A DNA stretch of 23,351 nt from IMG/VR virus record IMGVR_UViG_3300032213_002563, positions 1 to 23,351 of that record; one strand, given 5' to 3'. The position numbers and the translations under genes are program-made. This document shows positions 992 through 23,351 of the stretch, in pieces. Origin of the DNA: a virus. Under the pieces are notes generated by a model. It worked only from the letters and a program-made list of their open reading frames with translations, did not search any database and was not told where the DNA came from. Position 1 is the stretch's first letter. Every line of letters begins with the position of its first letter.

Positions 992-1833
992 TATTTCGGA
1001 TTAACATATTCGTACCATTTTATGGGTATTGTTGCTCCCGCTCTACCACCCAAGTTACTATAAAATGTTTGTTCTGGGTTCATATTAAAAACTTGATAAT
1101 TTTGTTTTTCATAATCTAATTCAACCCTATAATAGAAATATTTTGTACTATCAAAAATGAACGTATTTCCTGAAATTGATGATTGTGGCATGTTCATCAT
1201 TTTAGTAAAATATCCATTTTTTGCATCATAGAACTTAGCGGTCATGAAGAAAGTTTTTATATTTAAAAAGTTTCTCTTTTTCAACCAATAAATAAAAAAC
1301 CCTTCTTTATCTCCAACATAATCTAAAATAAAATAAGGTTTTTTAATGTTGACGGGGGTTCTTTGCATAATTGCAGGCATTGTTAACCCCTGTTGTGTTG
1401 GTATAATAATCGTTATATAATTTGTTTGACGTTTTTCATCTACATTATCATATAAATCCAATTTAAAAAACGAATTTGAAAAATTATTGGTATAATAATA
1501 TATTTCATCGGTAGTAAAACCTTCAGACATATAATTGTTCCTCCAACTGGTTGTTGCACTTAAAGAACCTCCTGAATAAAAATTAAATTCATATTGAATG
1601 TCAGTAACTTCAAAAGCACTATCGGTATAAGGGTCGGTTATCGCAATCGGAGCATGAGCAAATCTTGTTACTTCAAAATCACCATAACCACCAGTAACTT
1701 TTTTTATTATATCCACCTCATACTCATCAATACTTTGGTCTAAACCTAAATAGTCCCAAGTTAATTCTATTGGTATTACTAATTCTTGATTAATAAATCC
1801 GTCTCTTTTTATTTGTATTTTATTCACATCCAT
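991..1833 (-). CDS. Beta-rich presumed virion protein, 280 aa, function unknown
   Basis: Complete 280-residue ORF starting with ATG at 1833 and ending with TAA at 993-991. I do not recognise the family. The sequence is rich in Tyr, Phe, Asn and Thr, has no membrane segment or signal peptide, and alternates polar and aromatic residues in the way of beta-sandwich phage structural proteins (for example VELDYEKQNYQVFNM near the C-terminus). It overlaps the preceding gene by 14 bases and the following PKD gene by one base, so it lies inside a tightly coupled cassette downstream of the baseplate wedge genes. A baseplate, tail-fibre or adapter role is inferred from context only. No Shine-Dalgarno sequence is seen; initiation may depend on coupling to the upstream gene. 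Confidence 0.8.
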   Translation of the reverse strand: MDVNKIQIKRDGFINQELVIPIELTWDYLGLDQSIDEYEVDIIKKVTGGYGDFEVTRFAHAPIAITDPYTDSAFEVTDIQYEFNFYSGGSLSATTSWRNNYMSEGFTTDEIYYYTNNFSNSFFKLDLYDNVDEKRQTNYITIIIPTQQGLTMPAIMQRTPVNIKKPYFILDYVGDKEGFFIYWLKKRNFLNIKTFFMTAKFYDAKNGYFTKMMNMPQSSISGNTFIFDSTKYFYYRVELDYEKQNYQVFNMNPEQTFYSNLGGRAGATIPIKWYEYVNPK

Positions 1834-3514
1834 CTATCAAAGGTTTAACAGGGTACGGAACTCCAAGTAATCCAGAGTTGTAGTTTATTCCTTCAGGTAC
1901 TAATCTAAATTGGGTTGCTTTAAATGGGTATTGAGAAAAATTTAAAAATGGGTAATTAACACCCCTATCTAAATTATCAATAAATCCATAACTATATAAA
2001 TCTCTCCATCTAAACTGTTGGTCAGAATTTGAAAAATATGCGTAACTTGGAATACCTTCAATAAATTGTAAATCACCTGTTTCAACATAGTCCGAAAATA
2101 CTCTAATGGTCATTGGAGTATGTGGTTCATAATAAAACCCAGGTGGGTCTGTAGTAGGGTCTTGAGTTATTTGGAATATATTTTGATTATATCTTATCTT
2201 TTGATAATATGGTGATACAACCCTTTCCAATTGTTCATAATCATTCCACTCACAAAAATCTCCATCTACGGTATCTCCTGACATTAAATTTTGGTTATAG
2301 TAAAATGTTTTTGTAACTCCACTTGTTAAAGTATAACTTGAAGTTAATATCTTAGTGTTTGAGTCTAAATTAGTAGAATCCCACCAAAAGTTAGATGTGT
2401 TAGTTAAATTAAACTTCCACCCTTGTTTTATCGCAATACCATTCGTTGGTTTATTAAAATATCCTGTATATCCTTTATTAATTATTGTTAAAAATAATTC
2501 ACTAACAGGTCGTTTTTGATTATCCAACACATTATTTAAATCTATATCACGAGCAACTGTTATGTTATATGAATTACTACTATTTTTTTGTGAAATTCTA
2601 GACACTTGATTTGGAGTTATTGAACTATATTCAAATTTTTTATTCTCATTAAATATATTTTTTTCAAATCCATTTTTTGTGATAATACAATCTTCAAGGT
2701 TTGTCAAAATTTTATGTTCTCTAACATAATATTTTGATTTTGTTTCCAAAATATTTTCAGGGTTAATTACCCTTTTAAAAGTACCTCTAACTTTATTTGC
2801 AAATGTTAAACCTGTATATCCAACATTATAAATATTAAACACGTATTCATCACTATCAAATAAACCATTACCCAAAGAATAGACTTGAAACAAATTTATC
2901 CCGTTATAGTTAAAGGATAATTCCACATATTCTCCAACACTCAATCCATGTGGTGATATACATTGAAACGCTATCACGTTATTACCATTTTGAACCGCAT
3001 TATTAATATAAAATGGTATACCTTCGGATGATAACCAATTTAAACTGGTTCCATTTAATTCATATGATAGTTGTTTATTGTAATTATTTTGATAAGCATA
3101 GCTAATATAATATGTCCAATTATAGGTATAAGCACTTTTTGCCTGATATCTAATGTGTTGGTCAGTTACGTCAGGTCTGTAAAAATCAAATTCATAATAT
3201 TGGGGATATCCTTTCCAAATATTATTAACGGTAGATTGTTCAGGTTCAACATAATATAATCTATTCATAAATGGTAGATATTTAGTTGTCCCAACATAAG
3301 TGTTATCGTATAAATAATTAACTTTAAATGTTGGTCTAAATGTTGTACATGCTTGTCTTTCATTATCATATATTTGGGCAAGACTAATACTTTGACTTCT
3401 ATCATATTCAGTTATTTCTTGACTTTGTTGTTCTAAAGACAATGAAATTTCTTGGTCAACAAATGGAGCTGACTTATATTCTAAACTACTCGGTATTATC
3501 GTATACTTATTCAT
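1820..3514 (-). CDS. Large Tyr/Asn-rich presumed virion protein, 564 aa, function unknown
   Basis: The ATG at 3514 gives 564 residues (MNKYTIIPSSLEYKS...). An in-frame TTG lies directly before it at 3517; ATG is preferred because it is the stronger start and neither has a Shine-Dalgarno sequence. Around residues 182-199 there is a segment FQCISPHGLSVGEYVELSF. 'HGL..G..V' stretches of this kind recur in beta-structured phage virion proteins and hint at a fibre- or baseplate-type repeat fold. Aromatic residues, especially Tyr, are very frequent. No membrane segments or enzyme motifs are seen. The gene overlaps the end of the 1750-residue gene by 8 bases and the start of the 280-residue gene by 14 bases. 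The function is unknown; a tail or host-contact role is inferred from position. Confidence 0.8.
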   Translation of the reverse strand: MNKYTIIPSSLEYKSAPFVDQEISLSLEQQSQEITEYDRSQSISLAQIYDNERQACTTFRPTFKVNYLYDNTYVGTTKYLPFMNRLYYVEPEQSTVNNIWKGYPQYYEFDFYRPDVTDQHIRYQAKSAYTYNWTYYISYAYQNNYNKQLSYELNGTSLNWLSSEGIPFYINNAVQNGNNVIAFQCISPHGLSVGEYVELSFNYNGINLFQVYSLGNGLFDSDEYVFNIYNVGYTGLTFANKVRGTFKRVINPENILETKSKYYVREHKILTNLEDCIITKNGFEKNIFNENKKFEYSSITPNQVSRISQKNSSNSYNITVARDIDLNNVLDNQKRPVSELFLTIINKGYTGYFNKPTNGIAIKQGWKFNLTNTSNFWWDSTNLDSNTKILTSSYTLTSGVTKTFYYNQNLMSGDTVDGDFCEWNDYEQLERVVSPYYQKIRYNQNIFQITQDPTTDPPGFYYEPHTPMTIRVFSDYVETGDLQFIEGIPSYAYFSNSDQQFRWRDLYSYGFIDNLDRGVNYPFLNFSQYPFKATQFRLVPEGINYNSGLLGVPYPVKPLIDGCE

Positions 3515-6500
3515 CAATAGAATATTTTGTTTTAAATTTATCTAACGCAGTTTCACCATTTATTAATCCAAAATAAAAATGATATGGTGCACTGACTAAA
3601 AAATTATCAGGATATGTTCCAGCGCTATAAGAAAATTTTCCTAAATTATCAACATTAAAAATATAACCTCTTTGATAAATGTCACCTAGCCCTGCAGGAA
3701 ATGAACCTATGAAATAACTTGGGACTCCAATATTTCTTCTACTTAAAGATTGATATTTATATCCAAAAATACCTGAAGCACTAATAGTAGAACTTTGGTT
3801 TGTTTTCCAATTATTTTTTTCACTGCCAAATATTGAGGTGGGACTTCCTTGGTTTAATTGCCATTGATAAAATGGTACAGTTTGCGATTTAATACCGTAC
3901 TCATATGTAATTGCATTTGCATTATTTGTAGGTCTAAAATCAATAATACCAGGTGTTAAAAAATCTTTATTTTGTAAATCCACCGTTGTTGATGAAAAGA
4001 ATACACCCATTGTTGGATTGTCCAAAGAACCTAAAATAACCACAGGGTCTGTACTTACCCCATAAACACTATAATATTCAGGTGAAAATGGTATTACACC
4101 ATATTCTGAATTTATTGACATAGTTTGAGCCAAATCTCCGTCAATTCTTAATTGTGGTCTTGAAAATAATTTATTTAAACTACCATTTAAACCAGATAAT
4201 AATTGACCCAAAAATCCACCACTTGTTATTCTACTAATCACAAATAAATTTACTAAGTCAGAAGTATCAGAATAACTTGTAGGTTGTAAACTTTTCATAA
4301 TATAAGCCTTTGCTGACGCATCAAATATAATTTCTTGATAAAAATCGTCTTTAATCCCTAAATTAATAATTGTTGTTGGGAATAATAAATTTCGGTCATT
4401 AACAGGTGATATTAAATCTCCAGTTGGACTTCCAATAAACCTATTATTAAAATAAGGTGAACTTCTATAATAGAAATTACTTGTATCTTTATCAAAATAA
4501 ACAAGTTTTTTTGCAAACTCAGGAGGTAACGGTTTATTATCACTACCAAAAAAGGTATCAACTTGAATCGGGAATGTATATAAGGAACCATTTACCCAAT
4601 TATTAGTAAATGTTTGGGCTAAAACTCCTCTACACAAACCATAAAAAAATCTAAACCTATATCCCCATTCAGCAAATGTCCCTAAATCGTTACCTAAACC
4701 GATTAATGGTTTTGTCATCAAAACATAACACCCATTTTCAACACTATCTGAAGACTGACATCCTGTTTTTACACCAAAATTAACACCATTACCACTATAA
4801 CAATCAAGTCCAACCATGTTTTCACATGAACTCAATGTTCTTATAACATTTCCTTCTGCAATTTGTCCTCCAATGTCTGCAGTAGCTTGCTCTGCACCTG
4901 TAGAAAATCCAGGTGATGAATAAAAATCTCCCCCACCTTCAATTGGATAAACCGCAAATCCTAAATTTTGTTGTAATAAACTAACACTACCATTTAAATT
5001 ATTGTTATTATCAATATAATCTGATGAAGGTAATCTATCAGTTCTCATAACCATTTTATCCGAATTAGTAATACTAAGTTGGGTGGTAAACCCTGTCATA
5101 TATGGATATAATATTGGACTGAAGTATAGATTAAACGGACTATCTTGTTCTAACCAATATCTAACAAATGGTGGGTCACCATAACCACCATTGGTTGTAA
5201 ACGGTCCTCTAAACATATAGGCAGCGCCTGATAAATCTTCAGCCCCATCATATTTACCACTTACTCCTAAAGTACCTGAGAAAAAAAGATTATTAGTAAC
5301 AGATTTTACTCCATTTGTAAGAGCGAAAGAAAAAGGTAAAACCCCATAATTGACTGAAGTACCCTTAAATGTAACAGTACCATTACTGTAATATTGTAGT
5401 CCAACGTTTGTTGTTATTTTATTTAAAGTTGGTGTAAAACTAGAATCTAAAGCTCCATAATATCCAACATTACTTGTTGTATATGATGAAAACTGCAATC
5501 CTGGTGTTGTTGAAGCACTAGGAAATAAAGGTGAACTTGGTATACCTGGACTATAAAAATGTGACGTAGAATAGATATTGTCTTGATTGTTGTGTTTTTG
5601 AACTGAGGTTGTAGAACCTGTTAGTTTTTGAATTGGTATATTCATTCTTGTCATACCTGTAATAACCACAGCATCAGGATTAGTATGACCCATAATTTGA
5701 CCAATACCATACCTGTTTGGTAATTTAGGTGAATATGGGTCAACACCTCTTTGTAAGATTAAAACTTTTTGTTCCGCAAAATCATTAAATATAGATGTTG
5801 GATAATTAAAATCAAAATTTGATGGAGTATTAATACTATTTGTGGCACCAAATATCCAACCTCCACCGTCCTTTTTCTCTTGAAGATAATACCCTGTATT
5901 TGGTGAATTTAGTTCAGCCCAAAAACTAGGTCCTGCGGTACCAAGATTAGGTATAGAATACGAAGTTCCACTTGGAGACGTAGTCGTTGTTATAGTTATT
6001 GCCGTTAGTACTTGATAATATTCTATATCTGATGGGTAAATGTATCTTTGACAAGCCTGTCCTTTTATTGTATTACTTGCATTATAGGTTGCAGTACCAC
6101 CAATAGAAGTTATGTTAATACCATTTGAGTTTGATATAACATGTGGTCCTATTGTAGTTGCAGTGGTTGTATATTTAACACCAACACAATCTAAATAAGT
6201 TGTTGTACCTGAAGTTTGAATATCTAAAGTTAAACTTAAAAAACATTGTGAATCCCCACTTGGTATATCATAAACAGTAAAAGTATCCGATGTTTGTGAT
6301 GTTGCCCAATGTACTGTTGCAGGAAAAGGATTGTTTTTAATGACACCATTAATACCTCTTAAAGTTACTCCACCAATAGTTGTCGAACCTGTCCATAAAT
6401 AATTTTTATCCTTTGTTTTATTTGGGTTAACAAAAGCCAATAAAGTACCAACCTCCAAATCTCGTGTGGATAAAACAGTTAAAGTATTATCATAGTGAAA

Positions 6501-8759
6501 TTTTCCAACATTACCAGGTTCGTTGAACGTAACTTTTATTTTATTAACATTATCAAAATATTTTTTTCTTGTATTATATATGTTAATTCTTTCTCCTGGA
6601 GGTAATGTAACACCATAAGCATAAAATCTAGATTGGTCTGAAAACGTGAATACTTGTGATTGAGTTGACTTTAATTGTTGTGGATTACGGCTACTGCTTC
6701 CACGACCAGCAACTGCCTGAGCATACATAGCTCCATTTAGTTGTGCGTCAGACTCATTCGCAGGATTAGAAATTAAAAACTGACTTTCAATATATTCTGA
6801 ATATAAACCAGAATTAGATAACTGAGTTATTAATCCCGCAGATGGAATTGATTCACTTGTTCCATCTTCTGAACCAGGTGCGGTTGTTTCTGGGTCACAT
6901 TCACACGCCTGACACTCAGGATATGTTATCATTGGTAATTTAAGCCTACCAAATTTATAACTTATAATTTTATTAAAGGCAAAGACAAGAAACGCAACTG
7001 CGGCAGTATATAATATTGCTTGAGCCGCAAATCCGACAGTCATACCAGCGGTTGCTCCAAACACCGCACTACCAAACACAGCTCCAATAAATAATGACCA
7101 ATAATTGATTGCTTCAAGTGCCCATCTTACTCCAAAATAAATTACAATTGGGACCGCAAAATTATTCCAAAGAAATGCAATAAAATGATATGCAATTAAT
7201 AATGGGACACCAATAATTTGGAGTACTTGAAATATAATTGCGAATAAAAAATATAATAAATCAAAATTTCTAAACCCTTCGTTAACAGGAAATTTATTTA
7301 CATTACTATCACATTCTTGACTATCAATCTCTTTAATACCAATAAACCTTCCTCTACCACCATTTTTAAATTCGTCAATTAACCCTGAAACAGTATACAC
7401 CCTATTATATTGAAACTCATAAAAAGTATCTTCACAATTAATAACTTCATTTAATCTGTTTAATTTTTGAGGTGGGTTTGTAAATCCATTAGTATATCCA
7501 CTCCAAGCTAATCCAAAATAATAAGAACTTTTTAATTGGTTAGGCGGTGAGGAGTCATTTGGGTCCGATTCAGTACTTGTCCATCCGTATTCTTTAACAT
7601 TAGGTACTAAATAATATGGTCTTCTAACTTGTTCAGTTAATGTTGGTGGTTGTTGCCATTTAACTTTAAATCTGTATTTGGCTTTAGTAGGGATACCAAC
7701 AGTAGGGTCATTAGATAAAACTTTATCACCAAATTCATTTGTAATATAATAATCCAAATTCATTGGTAATTCAGTCAACCAAACACCGTTACCATCAATA
7801 ATATTTCCAGATTGTTCTAATTCATAAGTTTCTAAACCAGGATTACCGTCAGAATCTTGGAATATTGTTTGTCGTATCGCAATAATTTGACCAGGTCCTG
7901 ATGTTAATGAACATAGATTACCCATGTCATCCGCTGGTTTTGAATTTTTCTTAACCCTAAAATTATCTGCGGTAGAATATATTGAACCCATGAACGTTGA
8001 TGTTGGTTGGATGTCAATATTTGCATCATCTCTTAAATCAAAATCAACACGACTGATTGCAATATCACACAATTCTGGGTCACCCCAAAGCGGAGACACT
8101 TCTAAATCCTTAACAATATTAATAATCTGTGGTAATGAATTTAAGTCAGTTGAGGTTCTAAATCTATTACCCGCAACTTGACTTTCACTAGCAAGACCCA
8201 TTCTAATTAAATCTTGTGGTGTTAATGAAAATTCTCCGATGTCAGATAAATCAACATCCATTACTATGGTACGTTGACCTTGTGGTACTCCCATTATCAT
8301 GTAATCACCACTTTCATTGGTTTTTACACTAAACTTGTAATATTTGTCATAGATTTCAATAGCGGTACTACCAGTTAAAACATCTAATCTTGTTGGTAAT
8401 GTACCTGTGGCTGCGTGAGTTGAGTATGATTGTTCATAAGGAAGTAAATTATATCTATACCCATCTTCGTTTTTATCGTTAGGTGATTTGTAAGGGTATA
8501 TACTTGATATCAAAGGATTAGATTCATCTATTGATTCTATTGGAATAAAAATAGATACTCTTGCATTTGGAAGTCCAAATCCGTTATTTGCGGTTACTCT
8601 ACCAACAACTACACCATATTCCGCACAACTTTTTGCATAAACATCTTCTTGTTGAAGTTTTAGTGATAAAATTTCTAAAAATTCAAACTCTTGGTCTAAT
8701 TGGATATTAATAGATTTATTAATACCCGTCTGTGTTCTTATTCTATATGATTGACCCAT
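3507..8759 (-). CDS. Giant (1750 aa) presumed baseplate/tail protein with N-terminal Ig-like domain and internal hydrophobic cluster
   Basis: ATG at 8759, TAA at 3509-3507. Residues about 48-70 (GVVVGRVTANNGFGLPNARV) together with about 142-168 (FSVKTNESGDYMIMGVPQG) read as a carboxypeptidase-regulatory-like beta-sandwich, split by a roughly 70-residue insertion. Residues about 500-600 form three or four strongly hydrophobic stretches (starting LLYFLFAIIFQVLQIIGVPL and ending near AVAFLVFAFNKIISYKF). A Cys cluster PECQACECD follows (C616, C619, C621). The remaining 1100 residues are Ser/Thr/Asn/Gly/Tyr-rich and look beta-structured. The gene lies directly after gp6, where T4 has gp7, but I see no clear gp7 similarity. 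It is the first of four end-overlapping genes. A virion role is inferred; a membrane-active stretch inside a baseplate-linked protein is unusual. Confidence 0.85.
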   Translation of the reverse strand: MGQSYRIRTQTGINKSINIQLDQEFEFLEILSLKLQQEDVYAKSCAEYGVVVGRVTANNGFGLPNARVSIFIPIESIDESNPLISSIYPYKSPNDKNEDGYRYNLLPYEQSYSTHAATGTLPTRLDVLTGSTAIEIYDKYYKFSVKTNESGDYMIMGVPQGQRTIVMDVDLSDIGEFSLTPQDLIRMGLASESQVAGNRFRTSTDLNSLPQIINIVKDLEVSPLWGDPELCDIAISRVDFDLRDDANIDIQPTSTFMGSIYSTADNFRVKKNSKPADDMGNLCSLTSGPGQIIAIRQTIFQDSDGNPGLETYELEQSGNIIDGNGVWLTELPMNLDYYITNEFGDKVLSNDPTVGIPTKAKYRFKVKWQQPPTLTEQVRRPYYLVPNVKEYGWTSTESDPNDSSPPNQLKSSYYFGLAWSGYTNGFTNPPQKLNRLNEVINCEDTFYEFQYNRVYTVSGLIDEFKNGGRGRFIGIKEIDSQECDSNVNKFPVNEGFRNFDLLYFLFAIIFQVLQIIGVPLLIAYHFIAFLWNNFAVPIVIYFGVRWALEAINYWSLFIGAVFGSAVFGATAGMTVGFAAQAILYTAAVAFLVFAFNKIISYKFGRLKLPMITYPECQACECDPETTAPGSEDGTSESIPSAGLITQLSNSGLYSEYIESQFLISNPANESDAQLNGAMYAQAVAGRGSSSRNPQQLKSTQSQVFTFSDQSRFYAYGVTLPPGERINIYNTRKKYFDNVNKIKVTFNEPGNVGKFHYDNTLTVLSTRDLEVGTLLAFVNPNKTKDKNYLWTGSTTIGGVTLRGINGVIKNNPFPATVHWATSQTSDTFTVYDIPSGDSQCFLSLTLDIQTSGTTTYLDCVGVKYTTTATTIGPHVISNSNGINITSIGGTATYNASNTIKGQACQRYIYPSDIEYYQVLTAITITTTTSPSGTSYSIPNLGTAGPSFWAELNSPNTGYYLQEKKDGGGWIFGATNSINTPSNFDFNYPTSIFNDFAEQKVLILQRGVDPYSPKLPNRYGIGQIMGHTNPDAVVITGMTRMNIPIQKLTGSTTSVQKHNNQDNIYSTSHFYSPGIPSSPLFPSASTTPGLQFSSYTTSNVGYYGALDSSFTPTLNKITTNVGLQYYSNGTVTFKGTSVNYGVLPFSFALTNGVKSVTNNLFFSGTLGVSGKYDGAEDLSGAAYMFRGPFTTNGGYGDPPFVRYWLEQDSPFNLYFSPILYPYMTGFTTQLSITNSDKMVMRTDRLPSSDYIDNNNNLNGSVSLLQQNLGFAVYPIEGGGDFYSSPGFSTGAEQATADIGGQIAEGNVIRTLSSCENMVGLDCYSGNGVNFGVKTGCQSSDSVENGCYVLMTKPLIGLGNDLGTFAEWGYRFRFFYGLCRGVLAQTFTNNWVNGSLYTFPIQVDTFFGSDNKPLPPEFAKKLVYFDKDTSNFYYRSSPYFNNRFIGSPTGDLISPVNDRNLLFPTTIINLGIKDDFYQEIIFDASAKAYIMKSLQPTSYSDTSDLVNLFVISRITSGGFLGQLLSGLNGSLNKLFSRPQLRIDGDLAQTMSINSEYGVIPFSPEYYSVYGVSTDPVVILGSLDNPTMGVFFSSTTVDLQNKDFLTPGIIDFRPTNNANAITYEYGIKSQTVPFYQWQLNQGSPTSIFGSEKNNWKTNQSSTISASGIFGYKYQSLSRRNIGVPSYFIGSFPAGLGDIYQRGYIFNVDNLGKFSYSAGTYPDNFLVSAPYHFYFGLINGETALDKFKTKYSIDE

Positions 8760-8850
8760 CAGGTTACTTTAATTTATAAATAGTTTATGTGGAATTTTTA
8801 AAGAGTCCACACAACTAAATAATAAACTAAATAAAGATAAAATAAACTTG
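8760..8850 (-). promoter_or_regulatory. 91-base gap before the giant structural gene: weak promoter-like box and short hairpin
   Basis: This is the second-longest intergenic gap and separates the gp6 gene from the giant-protein cassette. On the minus strand it holds TATCTTTA (8839-8832), one mismatch from the Bacteroidota -7 consensus TAnnTTTG, but no convincing TTTG box lies 19-21 bases upstream. A 6-bp inverted repeat (TGTGGA/TCCACA, 8788-8793 with 8806-8811, 12-base loop) has no U-run after it, so it is not a convincing terminator. TATTTATA follows 15 bases before the ATG. A promoter or mRNA processing point is plausible but not shown. Confidence 0.25.
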
Positions 8851-10689
8851 TTATGAAAAAGTTACAGATTGGAAATTTTTAACTGAAACTCTAATGTCCT
8901 TATTTGGATACCTAATTTCATAAACTTGTGACGGTTGTGCAAAAATTGTGTCGTCAACAGGTAAAATTAATTTTGTTTCAGGATTGGCATATGTCATAGA
9001 TGTTTCCGCTGAAGAATATTGCCCACCAACTTCATTGAATACATCAATATTTGCAACGGTTAATACTCCATTCGTATTTTGTATTAAACTTCTAACTTCA
9101 GATAGATAAACATTCTGACCTAATTGTCTTGTTTGAGGATTAAAATATGCCGATATTTTATCCACAACACTTGAAATTACTTGTCCTGAGTTCTGAGCGG
9201 AATCTAAAACAATAGAAATATCCATACTTAAATCAATTACTTCAGCACTAAAAATAGAAATATAATCATTCATCATTCTATAGTTTGATAAATAATTTGC
9301 AATGTTCTGTCTTAAAGTATTTGAAACAACATTAGTTAATTTACCTGAGGTATCGTAAGATAATATTTGAATTAATATCTTATTATCATTTTCGGTAATA
9401 GATACTTTTGCAGGTGCCCCGAATTGAGCTGGCATGTTTCTAATTAATGATTCGTAATCTTGAACGGTAACCGCTCTTTTCTGAGCAGCAAAGTTAAATG
9501 ATACATAATTTCTAATTTCCTCTAATGAAGGAATTCCCGCCCCACCAACTGCCGCGGTTACGTTAACACATCTTAATGAATTAACCACTGATGAGTTTGT
9601 TGTCTCTGAAGGTCCGTTAACAAAGAATGACACCGTACCTAACGCATTAATAACATTCGTACCTAAGTTTGTTGCCAAACCACCACCAACTCTATACTGA
9701 ATAAACAAAGTTGAGTTTGGAGTTAATGTCGCTCCTAATGAAAGGTTATTTGAGTATCTTTGTAAATCTAATGTTGCCCCTAAAGTTGTGAATTGATTTA
9801 ATTGGTCTTGAGCAGTATTTGTTCCACCACCAAATGTCATTTTTTTAAATCCTTCAGGAGTATACTCAGTAATAAATCTATCTTGAGTTTGGATATACCT
9901 ACCAACTTTAATACCAGGTTGGTCAGATACTTTTGTAGGGTCTTCAACAAACACTCTATCTTCCGCCAACGCATCTACTTCATACCATCTATTATCTAAA
10001 CCTAAGAACTCAGCAGTTGTTGGAGTATTTGTGTAGTTGGTACCATTTTTTAATAACACACTTGTAATACCTAACACATTCTTTTCAGGTAGAAATAATT
10101 CAAAGAATGGTTTAACATCATTCGCGGCGATAACTTTTTTGAAAACCTTGGTTATACCATTAACAACAAGTTCTCTTTTTGTTATGGTGTAATTAATTAA
10201 TACGTTGTTTGCATTAAAGTTTGGAATCTTTAATCTATTTGGAAATCCTTGAGCATTATATGGTGAAGCGAAGTCAATGTCATAAACATTTTCAAATACT
10301 ATACCAGCACCAACAACTTGAGACCCTCTAGCCAATATTCCAAGATATCTTTCATCTTCTTTATCTCCGAACGCAGGAACCGTAATTGAGAAATCAACTA
10401 ACGATACTGATGGTCTTTGACCTGGCAATTTTAACCCATATGTTCTTGCTATGTTGTAAATTGAAGACCTTTGTTGTGCGTATTGTAATACGGTTTCTTG
10501 GATACTTCTATCTATATTATAGTGTAAATTGTCCGCAACCGCAGCATTCAAATCAATGAATACCGAGAATACTGATGCGTCATTAAAATCCTGAATCAAG
10601 TCAGGATAATAAGTTTTTGTGTAATTTAGGAGTTCAGTTCTTATTGACTGATAATCTCTACTTGCATATGATATTCTATTGTTTGCCAT
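8851..10689 (-). CDS. gp6: Baseplate wedge subunit, T4 gp6-like (baseplate J family)
   Basis: 612 residues, ATG at 10689, TAA at 8853-8851; T4 gp6 is of similar size (about 660). The N-terminus carries the family signature ISYASRDYQSIRTELLNY followed by YPDLIQDFNDASVFSVFIDLNAAVADNLHYNIDRSIQETVL, and then ARTYGLKLPGQRPS. The central segment FAAQKRAVTVQDYESLIRNMP is the second hallmark of gp6/baseplate-J proteins. In T4, gp6 dimers form the continuous inner ring that links the wedges round the hub and drives sheath contraction. The gene follows gp25 with a 5-base gap, the same functional pairing seen in T4 and other contractile systems, where gp25 and gp6 bind each other. Cytoplasmic assembly; no signal peptide. 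The family call is secure; its similarity to any particular phage is not assessed. Confidence 0.93.
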   Translation of the reverse strand: MANNRISYASRDYQSIRTELLNYTKTYYPDLIQDFNDASVFSVFIDLNAAVADNLHYNIDRSIQETVLQYAQQRSSIYNIARTYGLKLPGQRPSVSLVDFSITVPAFGDKEDERYLGILARGSQVVGAGIVFENVYDIDFASPYNAQGFPNRLKIPNFNANNVLINYTITKRELVVNGITKVFKKVIAANDVKPFFELFLPEKNVLGITSVLLKNGTNYTNTPTTAEFLGLDNRWYEVDALAEDRVFVEDPTKVSDQPGIKVGRYIQTQDRFITEYTPEGFKKMTFGGGTNTAQDQLNQFTTLGATLDLQRYSNNLSLGATLTPNSTLFIQYRVGGGLATNLGTNVINALGTVSFFVNGPSETTNSSVVNSLRCVNVTAAVGGAGIPSLEEIRNYVSFNFAAQKRAVTVQDYESLIRNMPAQFGAPAKVSITENDNKILIQILSYDTSGKLTNVVSNTLRQNIANYLSNYRMMNDYISIFSAEVIDLSMDISIVLDSAQNSGQVISSVVDKISAYFNPQTRQLGQNVYLSEVRSLIQNTNGVLTVANIDVFNEVGGQYSSAETSMTYANPETKLILPVDDTIFAQPSQVYEIRYPNKDIRVSVKNFQSVTFS

Positions 10690-10694
10690 CTTAT

Positions 10695-11165
10695 TTAAAT
10701 ATTAATAATAACAAAATCACTCTGACCAAATGTTGAACCATTGGTTGAATAATCTATTCTTATTTTTGCAGTATACTCTGATGTTCCTTTACCAGGGAAC
10801 CTATATATTGATGATTCACTAGTACCAACTGAGTTTTGCCCTGTCGCAATGTCCAATTCTTCTTGTGGGTCTGCTGGTGTAATACTTAAACTGTTAACCA
10901 ATAGGTTTGGCATAAAGTTTTCAATAGCATCCCTAATGTCAGATTCAATTGCATTAAATGTTAATCCGTCAAATGGTTCAAATAAAAATTCATATAATCT
11001 AGTACCAAATTCTGGTAAAAAATATCTTGAACCTTTTCTTGTCAACAACAAATGAATTAAGTCAGCCTTAATTTCCTGTGATTGAAGTTCTGTTAATTCT
11101 AAATAATCCCCTCGTCTAGAATCTCTAAAGGGAAAATTTAAACCATATGTTACACCATTTGCCAT
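10695..11165 (-). CDS. gp25: Baseplate wedge subunit, gp25-like
   Basis: 156 residues, ATG at 11165, TAA. The segment YGLNFPFRDSRRGDYLELT, then IKADLIHLLLTRKGSRYFLPEFG and TRLYEFLFEPFD, is the typical layout of the GPW/gp25 family. In that family the short loop around LPEFGTRLYEFLFEP contacts the sheath initiator and the gp6-like subunit. It is longer than T4 gp25 (132 residues) because of a Ser/Gly-containing extension near residues 100-130 before the last beta strands. The protein sits in the inner baseplate wedge and links the wedge ring to the tail sheath. It is the first gene after the nrdA terminator and is followed 5 bases later by gp6, so the two are co-transcribed. No ribosome binding site of the GGAGG type is present. 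Confidence 0.93.
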   Translation of the reverse strand: MANGVTYGLNFPFRDSRRGDYLELTELQSQEIKADLIHLLLTRKGSRYFLPEFGTRLYEFLFEPFDGLTFNAIESDIRDAIENFMPNLLVNSLSITPADPQEELDIATGQNSVGTSESSIYRFPGKGTSEYTAKIRIDYSTNGSTFGQSDFVIINI

Positions 11166-20512: not shown

Positions 20513-23351
20513 TTATAAAGTGAATGGTGGACCAGTCACTGTTTGAGTTAATACTTGTCCTCCACTTGGGTAACTATTTCCATAAGGACGGTATTTAACA
20601 ACTAATCTAAATTCACCTTTACCTTTTATATCATACACATAAGTGTAATTAGTACTTGCACCACCTCTACCATCAACTGCTGCTCTCTGCCCTGTGGAAT
20701 CTATGAAATATCTATCAGAATAATTTTGGTCTTCAAAAGTTGGTGCGTTGAATCTAAATGTTATATAACCACTATTATCAGGTTTTTTGATGTTGATATA
20801 CTCGGGTCCGTTTCCTGCAATACTACTATTTGTACCTTCATATGTTATTGAAAGTGGTTGTTCTGGAAATGTTGGAGTTGTTGATGGTGTTGGAATAAAA
20901 TTAAAATTAAATGTTTGTTGAACGTTTTGAGGGTTTTTAACTTTATCAGTAGGAACTGCAGTAACAGTAAATTTAATTTTAACAGTTTGACTAGAAGTAA
21001 CAGGAGTTGTTTTAAATTCATCAATTGGGTTAGTTATTAACATACTTTGAACATTTGCATATGTTATAGTAAACGTATTACTTGAAACATAACTTGATGT
21101 TTTTGTGTTTACACTTCTGTTTAATGTTTCAGTTTTAACATTATTAACAACATTATTATCATAAACAGATATTTCCATCTCAACTTCTTGTTGTAATGTC
21201 CAAGTGTTGGTTGATGCGGCTTGAGGGTTAACATTCACAACTAAACTTGTAGTTGACCCGTTTGGAGATGTTTGTGTTTGGTCAATTAATGTCACACTAC
21301 CCGTCTGTTGTGGTTGACTATTTGTATTATTTGGATTGCTTGATGTTGGCGTTACTTGAGCTGGGTTATAAGTGAAATTACCTAAACTTGTACCGTTACC
21401 ATGAACACCTCTCAATATTATTGGAGTACTTTGAGCAACAACAGTATTACTACGTGGGACAACAACGGAAATTCTAGTTTTACTGAAAATTGTAATACCT
21501 GTAGTTGTTAATACATTATTAATAGTCGCACCTGTAACCTCATCTAAGTTATTTCCAACAATAGTTAAAATAGTGCCGCTCACACCTGTTAATGGTGAGA
21601 AAGATGTTATAGTTGGTGGAGGACATGATGGTACTACATTTGTAGTTGTATTCAAATTGTTTGGTTTTGGTGTAACACCAGCATTGGCTTCTGCAGTTTT
21701 TTTCTTTTGTTTTGCATCATCAGCTCTTGCTTGTGTTACTGATTCAACATTTAATCCCGCGGGTCCTGCAGATTTAAATGCCGCCCTAAAAGTCGCATCT
21801 AATTTTGTAAACTCACTTAAATGGCTATCATAATATGATTCCGTAATATTTGATACAGGCCAATAACATACATAATATTTAGTAATACCAATCGCATTTT
21901 CACCAAAGACTCTATTAACATTTTTACGTAATTTAGATATCATAAAATCAAAAAATCTGTCAATATTATCAAAATTAGCCACTGGTTGTGGTGTCTTATC
22001 CGTTAAACCTGGTATATTAACACATGAATATTTTTTAGAACTAAAGAATCCACTATTGTCATTATAGTTATTTGTTAATGGTACATTCGCAAAATTGTTA
22101 TTGTAACCAACAAAAGTATTTTGGTTAAATGTGTTAGCGTAACATATTGCATAAATAAGAACCTGTAAATTAGTATTACTTGGAATTTTATTTTTAAGTG
22201 CGGTAACAAATTCATCTTGGGTTATTTTAGTCGCCGTTGCAGGTTGACCGTCACCCCAGAATTCATACTCACTCGCTAATTTATTACGACATGAATTTTG
22301 TGCCGCAGCGGTACTATCGCCAGCCTGAGTAATAAATTTAGATTTATCAATATTTGTTATCGCCTTTCCTGCAACACCATCTTTTGAATTCTTAACAAGA
22401 CCCTCAATTTTAGTTAATAGATTTTGATTAATGCTTTGTAAGTAATTGTCAACCGTAGGTAAATCATATATACCTTGTCTAGTACCGTTAAATGTTGTCA
22501 CAAAATTACCAGGAGTAATATTATGGTTAACTTCTGTTATAAAATATGGACCGTTAAACATTGGGACATGTCTAAGATTAAAATACATTGTTGGTTGTAA
22601 TAACGCATTACCTAAAGACTGAACTTGGCATTGATAACTTCTTTGTTTGTATAAGTTATATAAACTAACGTTTTGAGTTGCAACATTTCTACCCGAAGCT
22701 TGGTCAACCATGTTTAATTGTGTTTGAATTGTTTCAGAAGTTGCTTTACCTCCATCCATTGCAACGTTAAATGAAAAAAAGATATTTTGATTTCTAACCC
22801 CAATATCCACATTGAATCCAACACATTTATTTGAAGTTGAGTAGTCTTTTTTACCAACAAGATTTTCAATTAAAGGATTGTCAGAAGCTCTTCTTAAGTC
22901 AAAAGAATCATCCCTAAATCTTGAATTACCTTTCGGTAAATCTAAATGTGTTGATGGTTGCCCAGCATAAAAACAAACCATTTTAGGTCCCGATTTTCTA
23001 TAATCAACATCCAAAAATGTTCCCCACATATTATCAGCAAATTCTAACTTACCTTCAGGTTGTGGTATTGTTGTACCATCTACGTCTTGTATGTTATAAA
23101 AGTTAACATATGCTGGTAATGGCATAACGTTAAATTTATTCTTAATTAACATTCCACTTATGAACACAAAAACACTCATTTCCATGTTTAGTGAATTCAT
23201 ACTTAAGGTATCTTTTAAGTCAAAAATATCTACAACAATTGTATCTCCAATGTTTCTTGATGCTCTATCTAAAAACATGAAATCTTCAAATAATGTTTTT
23301 GTTGTATAATCTGAACCAGCAACCCATTTATCATTTAACGCTTTAAAGACT
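20513..23351 (-). CDS. Partial large baseplate-hub/tail-like protein with IPT/TIG domain (5' end outside window)
   Basis: The frame is open to the right edge: 24 more codons (ending SDYTTKTLFEDF) precede the ATG at 23278, so the true start lies outside and at least 945 residues are present. Numbering from that ATG, residues about 213-275 contain SYQCQVQSLGNALLQPTMYF and FNGPYFITEVNHNITPGNFVTTF. This 'G.y.I.eV.H.i..g.f.T.f' pattern resembles contractile-tail hub (gp27/gpD-like) proteins. Residues about 352-455 (YNNNFANVPL, then KYSCVNI and VANFDNIDRFFDFMI) vaguely resemble glucosaminidase/lysozyme folds. Residues 554-639 (PPTITSFSPLTGVSGTILTIVGNNL to GNFTYNP) are a clear IPT/TIG immunoglobulin-like domain. 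More beta-rich segments follow, with Asn/Thr/Gln linkers. A hub or host-contact role is inferred. Stop TAA at 20515-20513. Confidence 0.85.
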   Translation of the reverse strand, partial: VFKALNDKWVAGSDYTTKTLFEDFMFLDRASRNIGDTIVVDIFDLKDTLSMNSLNMEMSVFVFISGMLIKNKFNVMPLPAYVNFYNIQDVDGTTIPQPEGKLEFADNMWGTFLDVDYRKSGPKMVCFYAGQPSTHLDLPKGNSRFRDDSFDLRRASDNPLIENLVGKKDYSTSNKCVGFNVDIGVRNQNIFFSFNVAMDGGKATSETIQTQLNMVDQASGRNVATQNVSLYNLYKQRSYQCQVQSLGNALLQPTMYFNLRHVPMFNGPYFITEVNHNITPGNFVTTFNGTRQGIYDLPTVDNYLQSINQNLLTKIEGLVKNSKDGVAGKAITNIDKSKFITQAGDSTAAAQNSCRNKLASEYEFWGDGQPATATKITQDEFVTALKNKIPSNTNLQVLIYAICYANTFNQNTFVGYNNNFANVPLTNNYNDNSGFFSSKKYSCVNIPGLTDKTPQPVANFDNIDRFFDFMISKLRKNVNRVFGENAIGITKYYVCYWPVSNITESYYDSHLSEFTKLDATFRAAFKSAGPAGLNVESVTQARADDAKQKKKTAEANAGVTPKPNNLNTTTNVVPSCPPPTITSFSPLTGVSGTILTIVGNNLDEVTGATINNVLTTTGITIFSKTRISVVVPRSNTVVAQSTPIILRGVHGNGTSLGNFTYNPAQVTPTSSNPNNTNSQPQQTGSVTLIDQTQTSPNGSTTSLVVNVNPQAASTNTWTLQQEVEMEISVYDNNVVNNVKTETLNRSVNTKTSSYVSSNTFTITYANVQSMLITNPIDEFKTTPVTSSQTVKIKFTVTAVPTDKVKNPQNVQQTFNFNFIPTPSTTPTFPEQPLSITYEGTNSSIAGNGPEYINIKKPDNSGYITFRFNAPTFEDQNYSDRYFIDSTGQRAAVDGRGGASTNYTYVYDIKGKGEFRLVVKYRPYGNSYPSGGQVLTQTVTGPPFTL

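Follow-up and report, generated by a model that had tools for sequence, protein, structure and literature searches.

The stretch of DNA analysed here (the window, 23,351 nucleotides of an IMG/VR virus record) carries on its minus strand the wedge genes gp25 and gp6, followed by a long gene whose 1,750-residue product we call BIG, a name used for the whole protein. Its reading frame is intact and is separated from the end of gp6 (position 8851) by 91 nt, in agreement with the original prediction of a 1,750-residue protein encoded directly after gp6, and it overlaps the next gene by 11 nt. The features discussed below are these:

10695-11165, minus strand: gp25 wedge gene (Pfam GPW_gp25), which precedes gp6 (context)
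8851-10689, minus strand: gp6, the baseplate J-like wedge gene (PHROG 219 and 6, Pfam Baseplate_J; context)
8760-8850, minus strand: gp6-BIG intergenic leader, conserved in length, containing promoter-like motifs and a hairpin that covaries
3507-8759, minus strand: BIG, an intact open reading frame with an ATG start, present in a single copy in the contigs of nine large relatives
7290-8759, minus strand: conserved N-terminal region, residues 1-490, where nearly every 50-residue block has a major-residue frequency of 0.79-0.92
7311-7313, minus strand: invariant C483, just before the hydrophobic block (81/81 sequences)
6960-7271, minus strand: hydrophobic, predicted helical block, residues 497-600 (four Kyte-Doolittle windows above 1.6; AlphaFold helices; 52-127 aa in relatives)
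6897-6914, minus strand: CxxCxC motif at residues 616-621, closely following the block (81/81 sequences)
5520-6842, minus strand: predicted middle domain composed mostly of beta strands, residues ~640-1080, with pLDDT mostly 80-95
6045-6254, minus strand: optional insert of ~64 aa, residues ~836-905, with C839 and C858, present in some relatives and absent from others
3510-5042, minus strand: conserved C-terminal region, residues ~1240-1750, which includes the invariant C1312, C1344 and C1376 (from conservation and the AlphaFold model)
1820-3517, minus strand: gene for a 565-aa protein of unknown family, next in the operon after BIG (found after BIG in 115 loci)

A further open reading frame, at 20513-23350 on the minus strand, runs off the end of the window. 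It is probably only the C-terminal part of a larger protein, because its positional counterpart in a 165 kb relative encodes 2,516 aa.

Scans of IMG/VR uncovered hundreds of loci related to BIG. An alignment was built from 93 distinct full-length relatives and the window protein, and 81 sequences (the window protein included) were left after diversity filtering. The aligned relatives are 41-91% identical to the window protein, and all come from metagenomic viral contigs. In 129 of ~134 loci BIG directly follows gp6, which bears out the suggestion that its gene is part of the baseplate cluster and gives it the place that gp7 occupies in T4. The order gp25, gp6, BIG and the 565-aa gene is near universal, and in most loci genes for 280 and ~370 aa continue the series. 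The setting is that of a T4-like contractile-tail baseplate cluster, as judged from the gp25 and gp6 neighbours and from a tail-sheath domain in the contigs of four large relatives, detected at E values of 4e-7 to 6e-8 that lie below the family's curated cut-off. A search of 50,697 phage records with the window protein and a 44%-identical relative gave no homologue at the sensitivity used, and a pattern-based scan of 84,980 prokaryote species genomes gave no prophage or host copy. The hosts of BIG-carrying phages are probably Bacteroidota, because a gene downstream in one relative (L004) encodes SprB repeats, a kind of repeat that occurs in Bacteroidota adhesins, and because comparison of UvsX places a Flavobacterium phage nearest among the cultured phages. 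Some relatives also carry a 214-aa endonuclease VII-like gene amid their late structural genes (L004:18941-19585, plus strand).

The leader between gp6 and BIG is itself conserved, being found in more than 80 relatives with a length of 85-98 nt in most of them. In order, it contains GTTTATTT, a spacer of ~16 nt, TATWATTT and a hairpin, with AA[CG]TATTTAT, which is nearly invariant, preceding the ATG. The 7-bp stem of the hairpin, which was picked by eye, covaries (score 0.306, with 0 of 500 shuffles as high and 37 cells changed on both sides), and the covariation also exceeds that of slid controls; RNAalifold predicted no pairs in the leader, and Rfam gave no match to it. Both the window and the 165 kb relative contain the promoter-like pair a single time. 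The AA[CG]TATTTAT motif is also located just upstream of several other genes in G001 (loci L149-L157), for example at 69678-69687, 106554-106563 and 150225-150234 on the minus strand, and it is possibly a late promoter of this phage clade.

Consecutive hydrophobic stretches had been predicted at about residues 500-600, and four non-overlapping 19-residue windows above a Kyte-Doolittle value of 1.6 are indeed present at residues ~497-600. In a protein of this length a single such window could arise by chance: the best one scores 2.49, against a 99.9% quantile of 2.81 in shuffled sequences, and is unexceptional. The clustering of hydrophobic residues could not, since the best 100-residue hydropathy is 1.55, compared to a mean of 0.50 (SD 0.13) and a maximum of 1.09 in 5,000 shuffles. 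Among the proteins of at least 250 aa in the 165 kb relative, BIG alone reaches three hydrophobic windows. A hydrophobic block occupies the same slot across the relatives, between strongly conserved regions that in most sequences carry KFPVN[DE]GFRNFD on one side and LPMITYPxC on the other; a divergent relative (L127) has a weak block only.

The hydrophobic character of the block is conserved while its sequence is not. Residues 531-600 have a mean major identity of just 0.38-0.41, yet 65-68% of their residues are VILMFWYCA, against 35-40% elsewhere. The block comes in two forms that are about equally common among the relatives, a long form of 104-127 aa with two to four hydrophobic windows and no cysteine, and a short form of 52-94 aa with one or two windows and often with cysteines. 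One form has repeatedly replaced the other. A tree built from the first 480 residues shows about 10 switches, of which well-supported branches force at least five, and recombination of the block could account for them. The charge of the flanks is asymmetric, in that the N-terminal flank is never net positive and the C-terminal flank is net positive in 87% of cases. In short-form blocks (L062, L069, L077 and others), the second hydrophobic part is often replaced by a cysteine-bearing stretch, C..C....PF...C...C, which is absent from long-form blocks.

The cysteine motif at the far side of the block, also part of the original prediction, begins as PECQACECD at residue 614 and thereby gives C616-x-x-C619-x-C621. 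All 81 diversity-filtered sequences have these three cysteines, and the same holds for C45, C231, C283, C483, C1312, C1344 and C1376. The block and the motif are nearly universal features of the family. A more variable element is the optional insert within the middle domain: at one fixed position the relatives have a segment of either 16-17 or 77-95 aa, with no intermediate lengths. Block form and insert are loosely correlated (r 0.48, counted across sequences rather than on the tree).

AlphaFold monomer models were built on the 81-sequence alignments in two pieces, residues 1-1190 (mean pLDDT 71, pTM 0.51) and residues 611-1750 (mean pLDDT 79, pTM 0.60). Structure prediction had been proposed as a check on the hydrophobic stretch, and it returned long helices (residues 497-563 and 568-593, at a moderate pLDDT of mostly 70-88) rather than a soluble beta core; the confidence is poor around the block, at 444-503 and 609-635. 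The hydropathy, flank charge and predicted helices of the block are at most compatible with membrane insertion. Residues 1-45 are conserved yet unfolded in the monomer model (pLDDT mostly <50), which suggests that they fold on a partner.

Profile searches, the other proposed check on whether this is a new kind of baseplate protein, matched no baseplate family: BIG has no match in PHROGs, no Pfam family above its cut-off, and nothing in a PDB sequence search, and a PDB fold search with the moderate-confidence monomer models gave no match at E<=0.001, including for the domain at ~640-1080. The carboxypeptidase-regulatory-like N-terminal domain originally proposed comes down to a sub-threshold resemblance. 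Residues ~45-170 resemble the CarboxypepD_reg fold (PF13620), with a weak match at residues ~142-166, but the window protein scores 12.4 bits, far below the curated cut-off of 32.3; among 25 relatives a weak match is seen in 12, with a best E value of 7e-4.

The reading of these properties that we tentatively prefer, at somewhat less than an even chance, is that BIG is a baseplate-associated structural tail protein of an uncultured clade of T4-like contractile-tailed phages, probably infecting Bacteroidota, and that it bears an exchangeable membrane-active helical module. Its location in the virion, docking on the wedge, and membrane insertion and the timing of that event are candidate features in this model. 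The N-terminal ~490 residues would dock on the wedge near gp6, the beta-rich remainder would form a peripheral body, and the exchangeable alpha-helical block would sit between the two. C483 and C616/C619/C621 would frame the base of the block, possibly as a metal or disulfide clamp. The block would be shielded in the free virion, and on tail attachment and contraction it would insert into, or anchor to, a membrane of the host envelope. A broader proposal, more doubtful still, is that an entire clade of contractile-tailed phages possesses a dedicated baseplate membrane-insertion module, an exchangeable block of one to four helices clamped by invariant cysteines that anchors the tail or helps to open the envelope at ejection. 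Literature searches gave nothing relevant for a membrane-type baseplate protein, and neither virion proteomics nor imaging was found for the BIG-carrying clade.

The strongest rival is that BIG is indeed a structural protein of the baseplate, with its hydrophobic helices buried as an inter-subunit helical bundle that never meets a membrane, and we regard this as quite possible, though again short of probable. The premise that the structural proteins of the T4 baseplate region include no membrane proteins turned out to be a weak one. T4 gp7 reaches a Kyte-Doolittle value of 2.07 at residues 886-904, in a stretch that is conserved in distant gp7s, and its record bears the note "C-terminus is predicted integral membrane domain", yet gp7 is part of solved baseplate structures; membrane-like hydropathy by itself is therefore no proof of membrane insertion. 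Furthermore, the predicted 67-residue helix exceeds one membrane crossing, as in a long bundle, and the conserved but unfolded residues 1-45 point to tight assembly contacts. What burial accommodates less well is the extent and the freedom of the block. The T4 stretch is a single segment of ~20 residues (100-residue maximum of 0.18) compared with ~100 residues (1.55) in BIG, and a length of 52-127 residues combined with poor sequence conservation would be unusual for a precisely packed core.

BIG could instead be anchored through the block in the host inner membrane during phage production, serving as a scaffold for assembly or as a membrane protein that stays out of the virion. The sequence holds no proof of presence in the virion, and the charge asymmetry of the block flanks would suit such an anchor. 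Nonetheless, we consider this unlikely: BIG resides within the baseplate cluster in almost all relatives, and its 1,750 aa, largely beta-rich fold and many invariant cysteines would better fit a component of the particle than a scaffold.

That BIG is a highly diverged gp7-type wedge protein is very improbable in spite of its gp7 gene position, since profile comparison (hhalign) gave no signal against T4 gp7 alone (E 0.8) or five gp7s including that of T4 (E 0.53), which led us to reject the identity, and since a gene of 994 aa further downstream better fits the large wedge slot. BIG likewise failed to match PHROG 964, the gp7 family. The 994-aa gene is the better candidate because it has relatives in Flavobacterium phage immuto and Microcystis phage Mel-JY01, where they come third after gp6 (hhalign E 2e-9; tblastn 6e-5); its own link to gp7 was not significant by profile comparison.

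The way in which contractile tails handle host membranes is still partly open, and on the preferred reading of a membrane-active baseplate protein the BIG block would offer a defined and testable segment for this step. If the helices prove to be buried instead, BIG would become a clear case of hydropathy being misleading in baseplates. The BIG family is common, uncharacterised and linked to the baseplate, its block stays membrane-like while changing in sequence and length, and the abundant phage group that carries it was not represented in the cultured phages searched.

Outside IMG/VR, the searches gave a single confident relative, A0A8S5LA66 (Uncharacterized protein, Myoviridae sp. ctPuP5). 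This BFVD entry shows 42% identity across 364 aligned columns, with a Foldseek E value of 1.3e-24, but is itself an unannotated metagenomic protein. The nearest cultured relatives by gp6 also encode a large protein a few genes after gp6 (KNV73_gp109 in immuto and WWT39511 in Mel-JY01). Unlike BIG, these proteins have no membrane-like block; they have no detectable relation to BIG, and are related instead to the 994-aa gene. Nor is BIG related to the genes between gp6 and the large protein in immuto, Mel-JY01 and LR756508. The parallel with T4 gp7 is one of setting and general character: both are large proteins of contractile-tail systems, both have their gene next after gp6, and both include a membrane-like stretch. 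They differ in size (1,032 aa for gp7 against 1,750 aa for BIG) and in the extent of that stretch, and BIG, unlike T4 gp7, is marked by its invariant cysteines.
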